A DNA stretch of 64,000 nt, taken from positions 3,720,001-3,784,000 of the forward strand of contig NZ_CP097289.1 of NCBI RefSeq assembly GCF_023498005.1. Direction: 5' to 3'. Under the pieces are notes generated by a model that was not told where the DNA came from, did not search any database, and saw only the letters and a list, made by a program, of their open reading frames with translations. The first letter of the stretch is position 1. Every line of letters begins with the position of its first letter. A program made the position numbers and the translations under genes. Positions 44,797-52,720 of the stretch are shown one piece after another. The DNA comes from Streptomyces durmitorensis (lineage in GTDB: Bacteria; Actinomycetota; Actinomycetes; Streptomycetales; Streptomycetaceae).

Positions 44797-45972
44797 ATGA
44801 CAGTCGCCGCTATTTCGTGGAGTGCCGCCAACGCCCGGCGCATGGAGCGGCAGTTCCTGCTGAATCCCGCGAAGCCGGGTCAGGCCGGCCCCGGCGAGGT
44901 CGTCGACGCGATGCTGGCGGCGCACGCCCAGGTGATGTCCGCCGCCGAGCTGTCGGTGGGGCTGCGGATGGACGGGGCGACCCGCCTCGACGTACGCGAC
45001 GCGCTGTGGGGCGAGGAGCCGAGCCTGGTCAAGACGTACGGGCCGCGCGGCACGATCCACTTCCTTCCCGTATCCGAACTCCCCATGTGGACGGGTGCGT
45101 TGTCCGCGGTCCCGGGCGGGCCGAGCCCCTTCAAGGCGGGCGACCGGCTGACGCCTTCCCAGACGGACGAGATCGTGGGCGCGATCGGCGAGGCGCTCGA
45201 CGGGGCCTGTCTGACCATCGACGAGCTCAGCGATGAGGTGGTGGCGCGTACCGGGCCCTGGGCGGGCGACCTGGTGCTGCCCGCCTTCCAGGGGATGTGG
45301 CCGCGCTGGCGCTCGGTCATGCATGTGGCGGGCCACCGCGGGGTGCTGTGCTTCGCGCCGAACCGGGGCCGCAAGGTGACCTACACGCGCCCTTCGGCCG
45401 CCGGGTCCGAGGAGCCGCCGCTCTCCGCCGAGGTGGCGGCGGGGCGTCTGGTGCGGCGCTTCCTTTACGCGTACGGGCCCGCGACGTCTCCCGAGTTCGC
45501 CAAGTGGGCTGCTGCGCCGGCGCGTTGGGCGGGCGAGGTGTTCGCCTCGCTGGCTTCCGCCGGGGAGATCGAGGCAGTGGAGATGGAGGGGGTGCCGTCC
45601 TCCTGGGTGGTCGCGGGCGACACGGAGTTCCCGGCGGAGCCGGTGCGGGGCGTCCGGCTCCTCCCGTACTTCGACGCGTACGTCATCGCCTCGCACCCGC
45701 GCGAGCGGCTCTTCCCCGGTCGGGCCTACGAGCGTGCGCTGGCCGGGGGCCAGGCGGGCAACTTCCCCGTGCTGCTGGTCGACGGGATCGTGGCGGGGGT
45801 CTGGCACCAGCGGCGCTCCGGGCGGCGGATCACCGTGACGGTGGAGCCGCTCGGCTCGCTGAACGCGGGGCAGGAGCGGGAGCTCGAGGGGCAGGCGGAG
45901 CGGGTGGGGGAAGTGCTCGAGGGGTGGGCGGAGCTGGTGGTGGGGCCGGTGGCGGTGGGGGCGCACGCGTAG
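44797..45972 (+). CDS. Winged-helix DNA-binding domain protein (HTH_42, YcaQ/AlkX group)
   Basis: The 391-residue protein has the HTH_42 family layout: RQFLL near the start, SLVKTYGPRGTIHFLP (about residues 75-90), WPRWRSVMHVAGHRGVLCF (about 168-186), and RLLPYFDAYVIASHPRERL (about 286-304). Relatives include DNA glycosylases that unhook interstrand crosslinks (YcaQ, AlkX/AlkZ), but the catalytic Gln pair cannot be assigned by eye. AAGGGGA precedes the ATG at 44797. A DNA repair or DNA-binding role is likely. Confidence 0.8.
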   Translation: MTVAAISWSAANARRMERQFLLNPAKPGQAGPGEVVDAMLAAHAQVMSAAELSVGLRMDGATRLDVRDALWGEEPSLVKTYGPRGTIHFLPVSELPMWTGALSAVPGGPSPFKAGDRLTPSQTDEIVGAIGEALDGACLTIDELSDEVVARTGPWAGDLVLPAFQGMWPRWRSVMHVAGHRGVLCFAPNRGRKVTYTRPSAAGSEEPPLSAEVAAGRLVRRFLYAYGPATSPEFAKWAAAPARWAGEVFASLASAGEIEAVEMEGVPSSWVVAGDTEFPAEPVRGVRLLPYFDAYVIASHPRERLFPGRAYERALAGGQAGNFPVLLVDGIVAGVWHQRRSGRRITVTVEPLGSLNAGQERELEGQAERVGEVLEGWAELVVGPVAVGAHA

Positions 45973-46017
45973 GTCTGCAAGTCTGCAGGTCCCACCGGAC
46001 CTCGCCCCTCCGCGTTG

Positions 46018-46779
46018 CTAGCGCTTCCTGGCGTCGAAGAGATGCCTCGTGCTGTGGGCCACGAACGGGCCCTCGGTCTGGATCTGCTCGTGCAGTTCAA
46101 GGAGCCGCGGCCGGTACTTCTCCACCGAGAAGTCCGGCACCATCCACACGACCTTCCGCAGGAAGTGGACGACGGCCCCGATGTCGCGGAACTCGATCCG
46201 AAGCCGCTCGGCCCGCAGGTCGACGATCTCCAGGCCCGCCGCCTGCGCCTCGGCGCGCTCGCCGTCGGGGTGACGTCCGTTGCGTACGTCCTCGGGCTGC
46301 GGCCCGAGGAAGTACTCGACGACCTCGAAGACGCTGGCGGGGCCGACATGCTGGGCGAAGTACGTCCCGCCGGGACGCAGCACGCGCGCGATCTCGTCGA
46401 AGTGGGCCTTCACCGGATGCCGACTGGTGACCAGGTCGAACGCCTCCGCGGCGAACGGCAGCGGCGCGTCCTCGGGCGAGGCCACGACCACCGCGCCGCG
46501 CGGATGCAGCAGGGCGGTGGCCTTGGCCACGTTCGGCGGCCACCCCTCCGTGGCGACGGCGAGCGGCGGCAGCGCGGGCGCGGAGGCGAGGACTTCGCCG
46601 CCGCCGGTCTGGATGTCGAGGGAGGCGGTGGCGCGCCCGAGCCGCTCGCCCATGACGTGGGCGTACCGCCAGGAGGGCCGCTCTTCCGTGGCCCGCCCCT
46701 CGAACCAGGAGAAATCCCAGCCTTCGGTGGGGGCGGACTCGGCTTCGGCCACGAGTTCATCGAAGGTGAAGCTGCTCAT
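46018..46779 (-). CDS. Class I SAM-dependent methyltransferase
   Basis: The 253-residue protein has a weak motif I LDIQTGGGEVLA (about residues 56-67), an acidic/aspartate loop in LPFAAEAFDLVTSRH (about 105-120) and RVLRPGGTYFAQHVGP (about 133-148). It belongs to the ubiquinone/menaquinone-type methyltransferase group by layout; substrate unknown. The ATG at 46779 begins MSSFTFDELVAEAES. It is divergent from the secreted protein gene with repeats between (46849-46881). Confidence 0.82.
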   Translation of the reverse strand: MSSFTFDELVAEAESAPTEGWDFSWFEGRATEERPSWRYAHVMGERLGRATASLDIQTGGGEVLASAPALPPLAVATEGWPPNVAKATALLHPRGAVVVASPEDAPLPFAAEAFDLVTSRHPVKAHFDEIARVLRPGGTYFAQHVGPASVFEVVEYFLGPQPEDVRNGRHPDGERAEAQAAGLEIVDLRAERLRIEFRDIGAVVHFLRKVVWMVPDFSVEKYRPRLLELHEQIQTEGPFVAHSTRHLFDARKR

Positions 46780-46849
46780 GGAGCGATCTTCGCATCGGGT
46801 GGCGCCTTTGGCTGACCGGACCAGAACGTGCAGGTCAGAGTCGCTGTAC

Positions 46850-46881
46850 CGTCGAGTACGGTCGAAATACGGTCGAGTACG
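46850..46881. repeat. Three direct repeats of about 11 bp between divergent genes
   Basis: GTCGAGTACG (46851-46860), GTCGAAATACG (46861-46871) and GTCGAGTACG (46872-46881) are contiguous in the 137-bp space between the methyltransferase and the secreted protein genes. Spacing of one helical turn suggests cooperative binding of a regulator. Confidence 0.75.
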
Positions 46882-46916
46882 ATCTTCGGCGACCAAGATT
46901 ATTCATGGGGGAACGC

Positions 46917-47462
46917 ATGCACCTCAGCTCGACGACTCGCATCGCCGGAGCCGTACTCGTCCTGTCCGCCACGCTGGTGGCCACCGCCGCCCACGCGAAC
47001 GCCGCACCCGCGAACGACGGAGCCTCGCCCACCGCGAAGCCCGACGTTTCGACCAGGGCCGCGGTCGGCAAGTACAGCAAGCTCATCAACAAGTCGAAGC
47101 AGAGCAACTACACGAACCAGAAGGACGAGATCGCCCGCTGCACGGCCCAGACCAAGGGCATGACGTGCATGATCAACAAGACGGCGTCGGCGACGCGCAC
47201 CATCGACGCGGGGTTCGGTCTCAGCCGCGGTGCCGTCGCGGGCAGCCTGAACATCAGCCAGGCCAAGACCCAGTCCGTCGCCGTGACGTGCAGCTCGCCG
47301 GTGAAGAAGGGGCACTCCCTCGTCGCCTACCCGATCGGCACCCGGTACAAGTACAAGATCGAGAAGCACATCACCACGCCTCTCGACTACAAGGCCGGTA
47401 CGAGTGGGTGGAAGCACGCCTTCAACCCGGCTCCGGCGAAGGTGAGTTGCAAGGTCAAGTGA
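46917..47462 (+). CDS. Small secreted protein, function unknown
   Basis: The 181-residue product has a signal peptide (about 1-30, ending near AAHANA) and a mature domain with four cysteines (in ARCTAQ, MTCMIN, VTCSSP and VSCKVK) that could form two disulfides. No known family is recognised. ATG at 46917 is preferred because GGGGGA at 46907-46912 is its ribosome site; the ATG at 46905 would place that site inside the gene. It overlaps the following lipoprotein gene by four bases if that uses GTG. Confidence 0.75.
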   Translation: MHLSSTTRIAGAVLVLSATLVATAAHANAAPANDGASPTAKPDVSTRAAVGKYSKLINKSKQSNYTNQKDEIARCTAQTKGMTCMINKTASATRTIDAGFGLSRGAVAGSLNISQAKTQSVAVTCSSPVKKGHSLVAYPIGTRYKYKIEKHITTPLDYKAGTSGWKHAFNPAPAKVSCKVK

Positions 47463-47917
47463 GTGCCTTTCCTGACCGAGCCATGCCCCGCCGCGCCACG
47501 GCGGGGGCCGTTGCCGTGGCCCTCTCGGCCTTCGCCGGGGGCGCGATGCTGCTGAGCGGGTGCGGTACCCACTCCGACTCCGACTCCGACGCGGGCGAGC
47601 CCGGCCCTGTGCCTGTCTCCTCTTTCGTCGGTCAGACCGTGGCCCAGGTGGAAGGGGGTCTGCCGCCGGCCTCGTCGATGGTGTCGTACGACCTGTCCAA
47701 GCCGGTCACCGGCGCCGAGGCGACGTACGGCACCGCGAAGGACAAGGGGACGCACGCCGATTGGATCGTGGTGGTGGCGTGCGCGGACACGAAGAACCTT
47801 GAGGACGACACTCGGCTCGCGGCCGGGGTCCTGCGGGCGGATGCGTATACGGATGCCGTTGCGCGGAAGGCCAAGGAGCATGCCTTCGAGCGCTACTTGG
47901 CGGAGTGCGGCAAGTAG
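47459..47917 (+). CDS. Lipoprotein with PASTA-like motif
   Basis: The 152-residue product (from GTG at 47459, which overlaps the previous stop) has a lipobox LLSGC near residue 33. The mature part starts with a serine/aspartate run (THSDSDSDAGE) and then PVSSFVGQTVAQVEGGLPP, which resembles the start of a PASTA repeat (P-x-x-x-G-x-x-x-x-A-x-x-x-L). The rest is not recognised. An alternative start is the ATG at 47483, but it has no ribosome site. The pair with the gene before it is likely translationally coupled. Confidence 0.65.
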   Translation: MSAFPDRAMPRRATAGAVAVALSAFAGGAMLLSGCGTHSDSDSDAGEPGPVPVSSFVGQTVAQVEGGLPPASSMVSYDLSKPVTGAEATYGTAKDKGTHADWIVVVACADTKNLEDDTRLAAGVLRADAYTDAVARKAKEHAFERYLAECGK

Positions 47918-47950
47918 CTTGCTGCTTGTGGTTGCCGCTCGCCGCTTGCC

Positions 47951-47988
47951 GCCGGTGCCGGTGCCGGTGCCGGTGCCGGTGCCGGTGC
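47951..47988. repeat. Hexanucleotide repeat (GCCGGT)6
   Basis: Six exact copies of GCCGGT (47951-47986) followed by GC lie 33 bp after the lipoprotein stop codon and 27 bp before the left inverted arm. Copy number may vary between strains. Confidence 0.9.
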
Positions 47989-48014
47989 TTCGGGTGGCCT
48001 GCGTCGAGTTGGTT

Positions 48015-48350
48015 GCCGGGGCCGCCCGGTTGTCCTGAGGTTGGCGGTTCCGGGCCGGGTGTAAAGGGCGCTCCTGCGTCGCGTCGGCTGCGCCGATTCC
48101 GCTGCGCTCCACCCTTGACACCCAACCCTCCACCGCGCGAAGCGATATGACCGGGCGGCCACGGGGTGGGACTCTCGACCACTCCCGTCAAATCAGGGGG
48201 TCTCGCTGCCGGGTGCGGCCCGGCTCATTGCGCGTGACCCCTACGAGGACATGGGCGAGCGCCCGGTCCGCAGCCGCTTCGGGGGTGGGCGCCGGTCTCG
48301 TCAAGCGACTACCGACCGGATCTTCCGGCGTGACCGTCACGGGGAGAAGG
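48015..48350 (+). repeat. Left arm of a long inverted repeat
   Basis: The arm starts GCCGGGGCCGCCCGGTTGTC and is matched in reverse complement by 48842-49177. The first ~105 bases are identical; after that mismatches and a few small length changes appear, and overall similarity is about nine in ten by eye. The inner end enters tandem units of about 90 bp (48262-48354, then a diverged copy at 48360-48450) with the shared core CGTCAAGCGACT. Confidence 0.9.
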
Positions 48351-48592
48351 GGCGGGTGCCCAGTCCGCAGCCGCTCCGGTGGGGGTGCCGATGTCGTCAA
48401 GCGACTGCGGACCGGCCCAGCGCGTGCGGCCGTCGCAGCCGTCACGGGCAGGGTGCGCGGAGGGCGGTTCGCAGGAAAGTCCCACCCCACGACGCGCATT
48501 CCGGCGGGCTTGGCGACACATTCCTGCGATCCACGTGACGCACCTACGGGCACCTACTTTCGCAAAGTTGTGTTCTGGCAGAAAGGGGGCGC

Positions 48593-48610
48593 GCGCGTTG
48601 CGTAACGCGC
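48593..48610. other. Small palindrome near the centre of the inverted repeat
   Basis: GCGCGTT (48593-48599) pairs with AACGCGC (48604-48610). It is near the middle of the element next to the AT-richer stretch and could be a terminator or a binding site. Confidence 0.4.
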
Positions 48611-48841
48611 CTTCTCGGAATTAGGTGCCGGACCCCCACCCCCTCGGAGCCGACCGACCCACGTCAGCCGCGACCTGCACACCCCCACCGCCACCGGTCG
48701 CCAGGCGCTCGACCACCCCGCACCCACCAGCAGGCCCTCGCCCACCCCACCCCTGACGACCACCCCGGAAGATCCGGTCGACAGCCGCCTGACGAGACCG
48801 GCACCCATCCCCGGAGCCATCGCGGACCGGGCGGCTCCCCC

Positions 48842-49177
48842 CTTCTCCCCGTGACGGCCGCCCCGGAAGATCCGGTCGGTAGTCGCTTGACGAGATCGGC
48901 ACCCACCCCCGGAGCGACGGCGGACCGGGCGCCCGCCCTTCTTCCCGTGGGGGTCACGCGCAATGAGCCGGGCCGCACCCGGCAGCGAAAGGGTGATGGC
49001 CTGACGGGAGTGGTCAAGAGTCCCACCCCGTGGCCGCCCGGTCATATCGCTTCGCGCGGTGGAGGGACGGGTGTCAAGGGTGGAGCGCAGCGGAATCGGC
49101 GCAGCCGACGCGACGCAGGAGCGCCCTTTACACCCGGCCCGGAACCGCCAACCTCAGGACAACCGGGCGGCCCCGGC
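48842..49177 (-). repeat. Right arm of a long inverted repeat
   Basis: Reverse complement of the left arm (48015-48350). Further inside (about 48750-48840) lies another diverged unit of the ~90-bp internal repeat, with CGGAAGATCCGGTCG as marker. The arm ends 59 bp before the OmpA-protein stop codon, so OmpA transcripts may run into it. Confidence 0.9.
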
Positions 49178-49235
49178 GCCGATCAAAGCCACCGGTACAG
49201 CGAAGCCCGGTGGGGCCGGCGTCCAGGGCCACAGG

Positions 49236-49901
49236 TCAGTCCTGGCTCTCGGAGCCGGAGGGGGCTGTCCCCGTGTCCGCCCCGGCTCCCCGGGGGAAGG
49301 ACACCTCGACGCGGCGGTTCTTCTTGCGGCCCTCTTCGGAGCCGTTGTCCGCGATCGGGTAGTCCTCGCTGTAGCCGCGTACGGAGTACGTGACCTCGGG
49401 GCCCAGATAGCTCGCCATCTTGTCGTGCACCGCCTCCGCGCGTTCGCGGGACAGCTTCTTGCCGTGGCTGTACGAGCCGAGGTTGTCCGTGAAGCCGAAC
49501 ACCCTGACGTTCGTCGCCTGTTGGGCCTTCGCCTCCTCGGCGATCGCCTTGATCCGCGCGTTCGCCTCCGGGTTCAGCTTGGGGCTGTTCTTGGCGAACA
49601 ACACCTCCGCCTGCAGCGCGAACTTCACGTCCGTGTTCGTGTCCTCGCGGCGCTCCTCACCACCGAGGTCCTCGACCACCGACTTGATGTCCAGGACCTT
49701 CGCGGGGGCCAGGGTCGCCCCGTCGGCCAGTTTCAGGCCGGGGCTGTTGGAGTCCACCTCCTGGGGGGCGGTGGAGGTGGTGCTGCCGGGGGGTGCGCTG
49801 GGGTCCTCGTCGTCGGCGAAGGCGGGGGTGCCTGTCAGGAGGACCAGGGCCGTGAGGGTGGCCGTGGCTGTGGCGAGGGTGCGGGAGCGTGGGTGGCCCA
49901 T
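49236..49901 (-). CDS. Secreted OmpA-domain protein
   Basis: The 221-residue protein has a signal peptide (about 1-29), a low-complexity linker, and a C-terminal OmpA domain (about 95-210) with the peptidoglycan-binding signature FGFTDNLGS...LSRERAEAVHDKM (about 138-165). In a Gram-positive wall it would anchor to peptidoglycan by this domain. It is the last gene of the Tad-type cluster on the minus strand; three bp separate it from the lipoprotein gene. A role in holding the Tad machine to the wall is inference. Confidence 0.85.
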   Translation of the reverse strand: MGHPRSRTLATATATLTALVLLTGTPAFADDEDPSAPPGSTTSTAPQEVDSNSPGLKLADGATLAPAKVLDIKSVVEDLGGEERREDTNTDVKFALQAEVLFAKNSPKLNPEANARIKAIAEEAKAQQATNVRVFGFTDNLGSYSHGKKLSRERAEAVHDKMASYLGPEVTYSVRGYSEDYPIADNGSEEGRKKNRRVEVSFPRGAGADTGTAPSGSESQD

Positions 49902-49904
49902 GGG

Positions 49905-50501
49905 TCACTCGCTCTCGGAGAGCTCTATGGCGGCTGGGGCCATCCCGCCGACTTGGAACGTCAACTTGTTCGTTCCCTCCGGCGGAGAGGGGAACTGCGC
50001 GAACCAGTCGGCCGTGTTCCCCGAGTCGATGCCACCCTCGAACTTGGTGCAGAGGCAGCGCCCGGTGGTGTCTCGCAGGACCAAGTACCGCTTCTTCCCC
50101 TGTTCATCCACAAGGCTTGCACCGGCAATTGAGCCACCGTTCTTCTGCAACTCCTTTTCGTCACCGCGCCATTGACCACCGGTCCAAAGGCCACCAGAGG
50201 TGTTCGTCACCTTGCCCGAAACGGTGAGGAAGCCGCCCTCATCGCGCTTGGCTGAGTTGATGACCAGCGTCACCCCGTCCCCCTTGGATTCGGCCAGCGT
50301 CTCGTCGGCAGGGGGTGCCTGCGACTCCTTCTTGTCATCCCCGCCGTCGTCGCCCTTTGCTGACGCCGAAGACTTGGATCCCTGGTCGGACTTGTCATCG
50401 TCCCCACCGCCGCCGCAGCCAGCGACCGTGAGGACCAGCCCAGTCGTGATCGCCACAGCGGTCATTGCCCTGCGAGTCTTCATGGTGCGCCGAATGTTCA
50501 T
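49905..50501 (-). CDS. Lipoprotein, Tad-associated, function unknown
   Basis: The 198-residue product has a lipoprotein signal with a lipobox at VAGC (about residues 26-29), a Ser/Asp/Lys-rich spacer (about 30-68), and an immunoglobulin-like beta domain (VTLVINSAKRDEGGFLTVSGKVTN from about 76). CLC in GRCLCTKFEGG is a vicinal cysteine motif. It lies between the TadG-like and OmpA genes with only 33 and 3 bp spacers, so it is probably part of the same operon. Confidence 0.8.
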   Translation of the reverse strand: MNIRRTMKTRRAMTAVAITTGLVLTVAGCGGGGDDDKSDQGSKSSASAKGDDGGDDKKESQAPPADETLAESKGDGVTLVINSAKRDEGGFLTVSGKVTNTSGGLWTGGQWRGDEKELQKNGGSIAGASLVDEQGKKRYLVLRDTTGRCLCTKFEGGIDSGNTADWFAQFPSPPEGTNKLTFQVGGMAPAAIELSESE

Positions 50502-50534
50502 CGCTACGGCTTCCTTCTTTCGTCGTTCGCTTGG

Positions 50535-51146
50535 TCAGTCGGCCAGGTGTACGGAGAAGAGGGCAGATGCGTCCGGAAGATCCTCAAGATCGAAGTCGTC
50601 GGGATCGATCTCGAAGGAATCGCCGCCGTCACACTCGAACTCGACCGCTTTCTCCGGGTCGGAAGCGGGGGTGATGCCGCAGAGCGGCTTGATGACAGCG
50701 GTTGCCGAAGCCTTGGCATGCTGGGACTCCGTGCCGGGAATGATCGAGTCGCCGACGGTGTAGTTGGTCTCGATCTCCACCCGGTAACCCGGGTACCCGT
50801 TCACTTCTTCCGGGCCAAAGCCGGTTACGGCCGAGTCGTTGTCGGCGGCCAGCGCATCAGCCGCCCCCTGGGCTCCATCGCCGGTGAACTTGTCACCGTC
50901 CAGCCATTCGAGCCAAGCGTCGCCATCACCGATCGACTGGCCCAGGCCATCGACCAGCTCAGCCCTGGAGTCCTGCGCAGCGGCCAACGCTGCGGCATCG
51001 GCCGCTGATTGGGCGCCGTTACGCGCAGATGCCGCTTGGGCGAACGCAAAGAAGGCGAACGCAACGAAAAGCAGAATCCCCGTCATCCAGATATAGATGG
51101 GGAGAGTCTGCCCTCGGTCGCTTCGCAGAGATAGGCGTGCTGTCAC
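50535..51146 (-). CDS. TadG-like pilus assembly protein
   Basis: The 203-residue protein starts with the segment DRGQTLPIYIWMTGILLFVAFAFFAFAQA, followed by ARNGAQSAADAAALAAAQDSRA. This is the N-terminal block of TadG/TadE-like pseudopilin proteins in Streptomyces, here lacking the Glu at position five after the glycine that typical Flp and TadE proteins carry. The remainder is an acidic extracellular domain (about 60-203). GTG at 51146 overlaps the 3' end of the pilin gene by four bases, giving translational coupling. Confidence 0.8.
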   Translation of the reverse strand: MTARLSLRSDRGQTLPIYIWMTGILLFVAFAFFAFAQAASARNGAQSAADAAALAAAQDSRAELVDGLGQSIGDGDAWLEWLDGDKFTGDGAQGAADALAADNDSAVTGFGPEEVNGYPGYRVEIETNYTVGDSIIPGTESQHAKASATAVIKPLCGITPASDPEKAVEFECDGGDSFEIDPDDFDLEDLPDASALFSVHLAD

Positions 51147-51361
51147 CCGCCGATGACGTCGCCCACCGCGTTGCCGATTGCGGTGGAGATCTTGTTGTCC
51201 AGGGCCAAGCTGTCGATCAGCGTATAGATCCCCGCGATAAGAATCATGAGCCCCGCATACTCCACAAACCCAGCCCCCGCATCCCGCTCCCTCCCCCGAA
51301 CCCGGGAAGTCACGGTCACGGTCCAGTCCACCCAGACTCTGAGTACGCGATCTTTCAGCAC
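51143..51361 (-). CDS. Flp-type pilin (prepilin)
   Basis: The 72-residue product has a 29-residue leader ending ERDAG, then AGFVEYAGLMILIAGIY. Glutamate at +5 and tyrosine at +6 after the glycine fit the Flp prepilin cleavage motif G|xxxxEY, and a hydrophobic helix follows. The mature form would be 43 residues. GTG at 51361 is supported by AAGGGG five bases upstream; the frame continues upstream without a good start. Its size and neighbours make it the likely major pilin of the Tad system. Confidence 0.75.
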   Translation of the reverse strand: MLKDRVLRVWVDWTVTVTSRVRGRERDAGAGFVEYAGLMILIAGIYTLIDSLALDNKISTAIGNAVGDVIGG

Positions 51362-51829
51362 GACGGCCCCTTCTCTCCCACCCGATACACGCACACGCAC
51401 ACGCACCGCTGGCGCAACCAATTCCGACGCCGCTGTCGTCATAGGCAACGTACGCGAGATCATGTGACCCAACAGCCACTCTCCGCAACCAATGCCGTTT
51501 GTGACGCGCAAGTTGGCGAGTTCCCTTCCCCGGCGGCGAAGTCATCACGCACCCCGGAGGCGTGCGGCAGTGGTGCGTGACCGGATCGTCGGCGGTTCAA
51601 TGCGTTCCACGACTTCCCCTCCCGCGAATACCGTGAACTCGGCTTTTGCAAAGGCTGGTTGGGGCGAGTGGGGCTGACCAGCCCCGGCAGGGGCCACCCC
51701 CGGGGTCAATCCGCCCTTCCCGTCCTCGGGGTGACTGTCCCACACTGGGTTGCAGCCGCGAAGAGTTTTCGCTGACTGGCTTGATACCTGCTCCGGCCGC
51801 GAGGCCCACCGCACCGTTCATCGCCACCC
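51362..51829. other. Gap between tadC and the pilin gene
   Basis: This 468-bp gap on the minus strand probably holds the tadC terminator (hairpin GGGGCT/AGCCCC, 51670-51685) and a separate promoter for the pilin gene, which would let the pilin be made in larger amounts than the machinery. No coding frame is convincing. Confidence 0.5.
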
Positions 51830-52720
51830 TCACTTCCCCAGGATCGAGCCGAAGTCCGAACCCGAGCCCAGGAACATGCCCGCCGCGATCAGAATCATCG
51901 TGGCCGGAAGCATGAAGACCAGCGTCACCATCGTTGCCTTGGGGATCGTCTTGGCCGCCCTGCGGCGCGAGTTCTGCGCGTCCGTGCGCCTCATGTCCGT
52001 GGCGAGCTGGATCAGCGTGTCCGCGATGGGCGAGCCCAGTTCCTCGCCCTGCTGGAGGGCCGAGACGAACTGTGAGACCTGTTCCGACGCGTTCCTGCGG
52101 CGCAGTTCGTCGAACGCCTGGCGGCGGCTGACTCCCATGTCCATCTGGCGCAGGGTGATGCGTAGTTCGTCCGCCCACGGGCCCTCGTAGCGTTCCGCGA
52201 CCCGGTCCAGTGCCTGGCGGAAGCCCAGACCCGCCGACACCACCACTGCGAGTACGTCCAGGAAGTCCGGCAGCGTGCGGTCGATGACCTCGCGGCGCTC
52301 CCGTATCGCCTGCCAGATCAGCGCGTCCGCCGCCGTCACGCCGAAGGCGAACGTGAGCAGGCCGAAGAGCGAGGAGCCGTTCGAGAGGAAGACCAGGCCC
52401 ATCACGAGGCCGAAGATGCCGTAGACCGCCCTGCGCGCCGCATAGCGGTCGATCGTCAGGCCTCCCGGGTTTCCCGCCATGTCGATCCTGCGGCGCTTGG
52501 CGTCCACCCGTTTCGGGCCCATCAGGCGCAGGACCAGCGGCGCGAAGCGCATGCCGATGCGGTCCACCGCCGAGCCCGCCGTCGAGACACGGGTGGCCCC
52601 GACCTCCAGGGCGATCGCCAGGTCCGAGGGGAGCTTCGCCTCCGCGCGGTACATGCGTACGCCTTGGCAGACGCCCGCCACCGCGAGTCCCATCACCGCT
52701 GCCAGAGCCAGTGCCAGCAA
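51830..52720 (-). CDS. tadC: Tad secretion inner-membrane protein TadC
   Basis: The 296-residue protein has the type II secretion F domain (about 145-270: LPDFLDVLAVVVSAGLGFRQALDRVAER, EELGSPIADTLIQLATDMRR) and about four membrane segments. With TadB it forms the inner-membrane platform on which TadA drives pilin assembly. The TTG start at 52720 is preferred because AAGGAGGGGG lies seven bases upstream. It is followed by a long gap before the pilin gene. Confidence 0.88.
   Translation of the reverse strand: MLALALAAVMGLAVAGVCQGVRMYRAEAKLPSDLAIALEVGATRVSTAGSAVDRIGMRFAPLVLRLMGPKRVDAKRRRIDMAGNPGGLTIDRYAARRAVYGIFGLVMGLVFLSNGSSLFGLLTFAFGVTAADALIWQAIRERREVIDRTLPDFLDVLAVVVSAGLGFRQALDRVAERYEGPWADELRITLRQMDMGVSRRQAFDELRRRNASEQVSQFVSALQQGEELGSPIADTLIQLATDMRRTDAQNSRRRAAKTIPKATMVTLVFMLPATMILIAAGMFLGSGSDFGSILGK

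Follow-up and report, generated by a model that had tools for sequence, protein, structure and literature searches.

The question raised by this locus is what kind of element occupies positions 48015-49177 of the window, the 64,000-nt stretch of Streptomyces durmitorensis DNA analysed here (coordinates are positions within it; its genome is denoted G000), where a 1.2-kb (1163-bp) inverted repeat with ~97-bp tandem units mirrored in both halves lies between two genes that converge on it. An earlier note on the same DNA had described the inverted arms and their tandem units, and had suggested recent arm conversion or a mobile, non-autonomous element. The reading judged probable here is that of a dispersed, non-autonomous, non-coding composite palindrome of foldback/BIME-like build, homogenised by gene conversion. 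The element and its neighbours comprise the following features:

47483..47917, plus strand: left neighbour gene, called by codon usage, without a Pfam match; a lipoprotein-like signal is visible by eye, and the gene runs towards the element
48015..48190, plus strand: outer left arm, conserved terminal part, 98% complementary to 49002-49177, with 14 matches in its own genome
48053..48127, plus strand: 75-nt cloverleaf hairpin of the left arm, from model R2 (G000:C1:3768053-3768127) and covariation
48261..48348, minus strand: tandem unit L1, outer, left half (unit HMM, E 2.2e-25)
48358..48436, minus strand: tandem unit L2, inner, left half (unit HMM, E 2.8e-14)
48466..48532, no strand: module B, a small imperfect palindrome, GCAGGAAAGT...ATTCCTGC (inverted repeat I15, fold z -2.1), with likes in other elements by eye
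48549..48629, plus strand: core, ~81 bp, asymmetric, in either orientation in other elements; boundaries by eye
48752..48832, plus strand: tandem unit R2, inner, right half (unit HMM, E 4.3e-20)
48843..48930, plus strand: tandem unit R1, outer, right half (unit HMM, E 1.2e-23)
49002..49177, minus strand: outer right arm, from complementarity to the left arm and own-genome matches
49065..49139, minus strand: 75-nt cloverleaf hairpin of the right arm, from model R2 (G000:C1:3769065-3769139)
49236..49901, minus strand: right neighbour gene, OmpA family (codon usage; Pfam OmpA, 8.6e-14); ends towards the element

The outer inverted arms (48015-48190 and 49002-49177; 176 nt, 98% complementary, 811 nt apart) are accompanied by a second pair (48203-48352 and 48839-48988; 150 nt, 91% complementary), a combination that cannot be chance; BLAST gives an arm length of ~401 nt at 89% identity. 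The mirrored arms of the earlier note are therefore real, and the outer ends that it put at ~105 identical bp are identical over the first 109 nt of both arms (by eye). Its diverged tandem units and their mirror copies resolve, with the unit HMM, into exactly two units per half (left units minus, right units plus), the right-hand pair having a period of 98 with 84% matches (TRF) and the left-hand pair a spacing of 96-97 nt with 72-83% identity over two stretches. The AT-richer centre with a small palindrome was likewise recovered, as the least GC-rich part of 47900-49300 (62-63% vs 68-78% elsewhere, in 100-base windows) and as inverted repeat I15, the fold of which is equalled by 4 of 200 shuffles. 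None of 200 shuffles folds as well as the 150-nt arm hairpin, whichever strand is taken (z -3.4 and -4.8); for the unit and the core, folding is not better than in shuffles (z 0.1 to 1.8). Between the left gene and the element, at 47951-47988, the 6-bp sequence GCCGGT is repeated perfectly in tandem (6.3 copies).

Inside the element, a gene caller based on codon usage and trained on the retrieved loci found no recognisable protein, and five ORFs of 120-180 aa in or overlapping it have no Pfam match; a coding element was rejected on these two results, and the description of the repeat as non-autonomous holds as far as tested.

Searched for separately, arm and centre both recur in the genome. 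The outer arm has 14 matches in G000 (13 at E 1.6e-62 or better, the last at 3.7e-41), the same 14 with deeper scoring, and model R2 also finds 14 hairpins; complete inverted-pair elements number six (the window's, L031, L032, L033, L034 and L035; 1163-2408 bp), besides two one-armed remnants (L036 and L037). The core (query 48560-48645) has 7 copies in G000 and 4 in its relative G139, in either orientation; matches to the core occur in 3 of 199 Streptomyces genomes, one of them by 29 bases only, and an exact 20-mer search of the genome contigs collection returned 0 matches. The repeat is thus multi-copy and dispersed, as had been proposed; the reservation that it might occur only here, with no independent arm copies, is contradicted by the 14 arm matches, and an assembly artefact as the source of the second arm is excluded by the five further complete copies in the genome and the copies carried by the relative. 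Unit number varies (1-7 left and 2-8 right; left/right counts of 2/2, 3/5, 4/3, 1/8, 1/3 and 7/8 across the six complete elements) and unit orientation is constant, the 48 nearly full units in G000 being without exception minus in the left half of an element and plus in the right (unit HMM). No target duplication was seen by eye in the flanks of the six complete copies, in agreement with the earlier reading of the window's edges. As to foreign sources, a phage origin was rejected with no match in the phage collection, and a plasmid origin with matches in 3 of 72,556 plasmid records, each covering only 6-7% of the query; a tRNA as insertion target was likewise rejected, the single ARAGORN match, in L036, overlapping a called gene and being probably false.

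The units themselves record how elements are related. Aligned by core polarity, units L2-L4 of L032 correspond to R6-R8 of L035 (98.9, 96.3 and 98.9%); L031.R5 and L035.R8 are 100% identical, and L033.R8 with L035.L7, and L031.L2 with L032.R2, each 98.8%. For the 47 units in the six complete elements, the closest unit of another element agrees in core side in 33 cases and in chromosomal side in 19. Agreement of core side holds for 10 of the 12 innermost units and for every one of the 12 best matches at 95% identity or above; the 14 units that break core polarity are mostly outer ones. Since inner units correspond by core polarity, whole elements appear to have been copied and set down in both orientations, and near-identical adjacent units (L035.R5/R6 and L033.R5/R6) point to later tandem duplication. 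The best-match partner of the 48 units lies in another element for 35, in the same arm for 12 and in the opposite arm for 1, vs 4.2 opposite-arm matches expected for random partners.

Corresponding sites in relatives bear on mobility. G139, the nearest relative examined (OmpA 91% identical; 86% by tblastn), has an element at the window's site with OmpA directly to its right (L106); the two genomes that follow in OmpA similarity, G109 and G179, have OmpA adjacent to the methyltransferase gene with no element, so that the presence/absence difference looked for at the OmpA gene was found, and the 13 loci L107-L119 show no element match and no inverted repeat. On the left side in G139 the methyltransferase gene stands ~1.1 kb from the element (L145, a contig ending in the arm); the left neighbours of G000 and G139 differ, similarity ending at the methyltransferase gene, and the window genes at 46905 and 47483 have no tblastn match in L145, L106 or L107-L119. 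In the place of 46905-47917 G139 has two other called genes, and the spot seems to change genes often. Elsewhere, G000 and G139 share the L032 and L037 sites on the evidence of both flanks and the L035 site on that of the right flank only; the L031 site is unoccupied in G139 (411 bp between flanking matches), as is the L034 site (34 bp between flanks, inside a hairpin by eye), and G000 is without an element at the place of G139's L061. The unoccupied L031 and L034 sites show no target duplication, and their junctions are not clean, the flanks differing beyond the element; no clear junction emerged at the L033 site. The suggestion of a mobile element is therefore borne out indirectly, by occupied and unoccupied corresponding sites and by apparent copying in both orientations, but not by a transposase partner or a target duplication.

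Elements of G139 look longer, judging by L060 and L062, both cut at a contig start: arm, units, module B and core are followed by a ~46-bp repeat middle and then by the mirror order, and the G000 copies, with their single core, may represent a reduced state. The mid-element array of L060 (604-1265; ~46-bp tandem repeats) consists partly of 94-bp higher-order copies. Eight G139 contig ends fall in or at elements (both ends of C4 and C22, one each of C5, C53, C40 and C43), so short-read assemblies tend to hide them.

Within each of these two genomes the arms resemble one another more than they resemble those of the other genome. In G000 the two arms of one element average 91.1% identity (6 pairs) and arms of different elements 92.5% (60 pairs), with L036 and L037 omitted; in G139 eight arms average 92.2% (28 pairs), with the cut or short arms (L144, L145 and the right end of L061) omitted; between the genomes, orthologous loci average 81.2% (8 pairs) and non-orthologous loci 80.9% (88 pairs). 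A tree of 22 arms splits G000 from G139 by one branch (support 96/93), the L037 remnant is the sole drifted G000 copy (75-81%), and variant blocks are shuffled among arms, as expected from short conversion tracts. Because the two arms of an element match each other no better than arms across elements do, homogenisation is genome-wide, and because several sites were occupied before the species split, each genome's copies have been homogenised since; the sequences thus show within-genome homogenisation in G000 and G139, read as concerted evolution, for which gene conversion is the likely means. A possible alternative, repeated insertion at the same sites, would need strict site choice. The recent arm conversion of the earlier note accordingly survives as homogenisation, not as a chiefly local, arm-to-arm process, which was rejected on the 91.1% vs 92.5% identities and on the single opposite-arm best match among 48 units.

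The 75-nt cloverleaf near each end is the most widely shared part of the element. Pairing holds in 91.9% of 802 cells (33 sequences, ten genomes), 8 pairs and 68 cells change on both sides against 1 cell on one side, and the covariation score is 0.187 vs 0.051 +/- 0.008 in shuffles (0 of 500 reach it) and at most 0.067 for slid partners, numbers which, the slid control included, lean towards the structure because the rows are related and the structure was drawn on the same alignment. That alignment (A1) holds 33 of 38 hairpin sequences, four near-copies and L133 (cut) having been dropped; an incomplete first RNAalifold structure and its model R1 were replaced by R2, with the structure drawn by eye. 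Further pair types are no higher than in shuffles (10 vs 9.8; 289 of 500); pairing in one helix reaches just 79%, and 14 of the 25 pairs are invariant. G-U steps are usual in RNA evolution; here they are almost absent and compensatory changes are almost all Watson-Crick, a pattern that fits a DNA palindrome, or else a structure that both strands must form.

The hairpin is found in 71 of 199 Streptomyces genomes (model R2, E 1e-5, stricter large-search filters), with at least 24 places in each of two genomes and no match in 128. In ten of the 71, chosen for long contigs and many copies rather than at random and including G000, 137 hairpins form 52 close pairs (<4 kb) and 33 singles; all 52 pairs are inverted in the same order, 772-3143 bp apart (median 1296). 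One G117 single, at 3934781, lies <4 kb from a pair whose right member it matches in strand, and was left unpaired by the greedy pairing. Of the 85 elements so defined, 76 lie in the central half of the chromosome and 1 in the outer 15% at either end, with positions taken along the contig and seven of the ten lengths being rounded values. A public-genome scan, among the matches listed (at least 111 stretches, 80 examined), returned mostly Streptomyces, partly the same strains as above, together with Nocardia, Actinokineospora and Asanoa; among the matches listed, the hairpin HMM gives at least 25 close pairs in the usual order, all Streptomyces, and at least three of the opposite inverted order, all Nocardia. 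In Nocardia L269, L300 and L304 the same hairpin is thus seen in another arrangement of the module, with pairs 706-866 bp apart. In the copy-rich genome G006, a 45-bp-period tandem array (L045:5923-6417) adjoins one element end.

Gene contexts lean towards gene ends. Among 39 elements (8 of G000, 14 of G006 and 17 of the 19 pairs from eight further Streptomyces genomes), 16 contexts are convergent, 21 tandem and 2 divergent, where a quarter each convergent and divergent is the assumed expectation and the home-made gene caller is rough; 6 of 8 are convergent in G000 and 2 of 14 in G006. The count omits L222 and L225 (no right-hand gene), L046 and L067 (convergent) and L047, L048 and L120 (tandem), and takes the L034 site as tandem, as called; its G139 counterpart reads convergent by eye.

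Genes between paired hairpins were considered as potential movers. Of the 19 pairs from the eight further genomes, 16 hold no called gene and 3 do, and the genes within the 19 include one transposase, of the Mutator family, in L210. That gene (L210:4121-5359, G117) sits mid-element and is apparently a nested insertion with its own ends (by eye). Between inverted arms 6.6 kb apart in G016 (L049:4023-10670) lie one DUF6551/DndB-like and one regulator-like gene together with most of a large PLD-ResIII-helicase-DUF3427 gene, which looks like a defence locus, and a hairpin pair in G197 (L221:3493-4840) surrounds NUDIX and aminoglycoside adenylyltransferase-like genes (Pfam E 7e-7). As mover candidates these three, L120 (DUF3089 between the arms) and L228 (weak PH-like) were all rejected as unconvincing.

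As a composite repeat, the element would run from an arm with its end hairpin through a mirrored ~97-bp unit array to the asymmetric core and small palindrome, and out again through array and hairpin-bearing arm. Whole copies would have been scattered in both orientations into intergenic spaces, mostly at the 3' ends of genes, with copying by a trans-acting enzyme or by recombination; copies within one genome would exchange sequence by homologous recombination (gene conversion), and unequal exchange would alter unit number. The terminal cloverleaf is probably the recognised part and, as its pairs change almost only from Watson-Crick to Watson-Crick, it would be recognised or repaired as DNA (a cruciform or single-strand hairpin), or be needed on both strands, rather than act as one RNA.

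This composite, foldback/BIME-like reading with gene conversion is favoured, as the probable one, by the six complete copies and two remnants, the 48 consistently oriented units and their core-polarity correspondence, the presence or absence of elements at corresponding sites, the split between G000 and G139 arms, the covariation and the 52 of 52 pairs in one inverted order. Against it stand the lack of target-site duplications and of clean junctions at unoccupied sites, the lack of an autonomous copy, Y1 transposases that occur independently of the hairpin, outer units that often break core polarity (14 of 47), the differing left neighbours and one-flank orthology of L035, and the limits of the covariation (pair types, the 79% helix and the 14 of 25 invariant pairs); moreover, central location and common sites could mean a selected function rather than mere dispersal. 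That last point leads to the chief rival, a possible but unlikely one: a working chromosomal element of BIME type, kept by selection in the chromosome core, which would end transcription from both sides and/or bind gyrase or a nucleoid protein at places where supercoils accumulate from convergent transcription. The central bias (76 of 85, against 1 in the outer 15%), the 16 convergent and 21 tandem contexts against 2 divergent, the 6 of 8 convergent in G000, the nearly Watson-Crick-only covariation and the sites common to two species all agree with it; yet such contexts would also arise if insertion were tolerated only away from promoters, and such a map if old elements persisted best in a core that changes slowly; G006 has only 2 of 14 convergent, 128 of 199 genomes have no match, and no T-run terminator lies within the element. 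More speculative, and rather doubtful, is the picture of a satellite-like element of the central linear Streptomyces chromosome, in which cruciform-forming, hairpin-capped palindromes would be bound by a host factor recognising DNA structure, with arrays turning over by unequal exchange and evolving in concert, and would serve core organisation or two-way transcription ending.

The remaining explanations fare less well. A MITE, derived by deletion from an ordinary insertion sequence whose terminal inverted repeats are long, and mobilised by the transposase of that sequence, would account for the inverted ends, the lack of coding, the many copies and the presence/absence between relatives, but is improbable given 300-900-nt arms with tandem arrays and no target duplication seen, unlike MITEs, and only one transposase among 19 pairs, central and beside what look like its own ends. 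Very improbable is a REP/BIME whose mover would be a REP-associated Y1 transposase (IS200/IS605-like) working on the hairpin in single-stranded form: hairpins near the ends, extragenic location and the absence of visible duplications, which single-strand action would explain, are in its favour, but Y1_Tnp has no match in the own genome or in G006, and the association with Y1 transposases was rejected (present in 25 of 71 hairpin genomes vs 41 of 128 others, p 0.75), so that this explanation was already weakened. A gene for a large structured RNA would fit the covarying hairpin and the arm folds (z -3.4 and -4.8), and is given equally little credence: unit and core fold like shuffles, G-U intermediates are almost lacking, the core occurs in both orientations, an Rfam search of 45000-52000 gave one match only (E 0.41, below the gathering score and outside the element), and no promoter-like site was found in 47800-49350.

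Among known systems, the REP/BIME repeats of enterobacteria are dispersed, extragenic and palindromic and often lie between convergent genes (PMC1525189). The family resembles them as dispersed extragenic palindromes in many copies (14 hairpins in G000; 71 of 199 genomes). It differs from them in its 75-nt cloverleaf, which sits close to the ends of palindromes 0.5-3 kb long that also contain ~97-nt unit arrays and a core, in having no Y1 (RAYT) transposase association, and in its centre-of-chromosome bias. REP units are ~35 bp with a conserved head tetranucleotide, and BIMEs are arrays of such units in opposite orientations; membership of REP/BIME fails on unit size and on Y1 association. Titles and abstract openings searched, in a coverage mostly outside subscription papers, gave no description of such an element, and this hairpin-ended, non-coding Streptomyces repeat family is apparently undescribed.

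Similar in architecture are the foldback (FB/TU) transposons of eukaryotes, mostly non-coding elements with long inverted repeats, a variable tandem inner part, a variable middle and a 9-bp target-site duplication: the present elements share long inverted repeats of variable tandem arrays (2/2 to 7/8 units), a variable middle and the lack of coding, but are bacterial and have no target-site duplication found. With MITEs and ERIC/NEMIS-type repeats they share non-coding sequence, inverted ends and dispersed intergenic positions, but they are much larger and have internal satellites, with no target duplication seen and no parent insertion sequence found. The BOX elements of Streptococcus are similarly modular with a variable number of a middle module, and the present elements are unlike them in being palindromic on this scale. 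Bacterial repeats of the dispersed palindromic kind are known chiefly as short units. In this family the palindromes reach kilobase scale and have several levels, with internal arrays that resemble satellites; the copies are homogenised in each of two genomes and concentrated in the chromosome centre. The family provides a natural setting in which to study how dispersed repeats undergo gene conversion, and to ask which factors tolerate or require long palindromes in a genome of high GC content.
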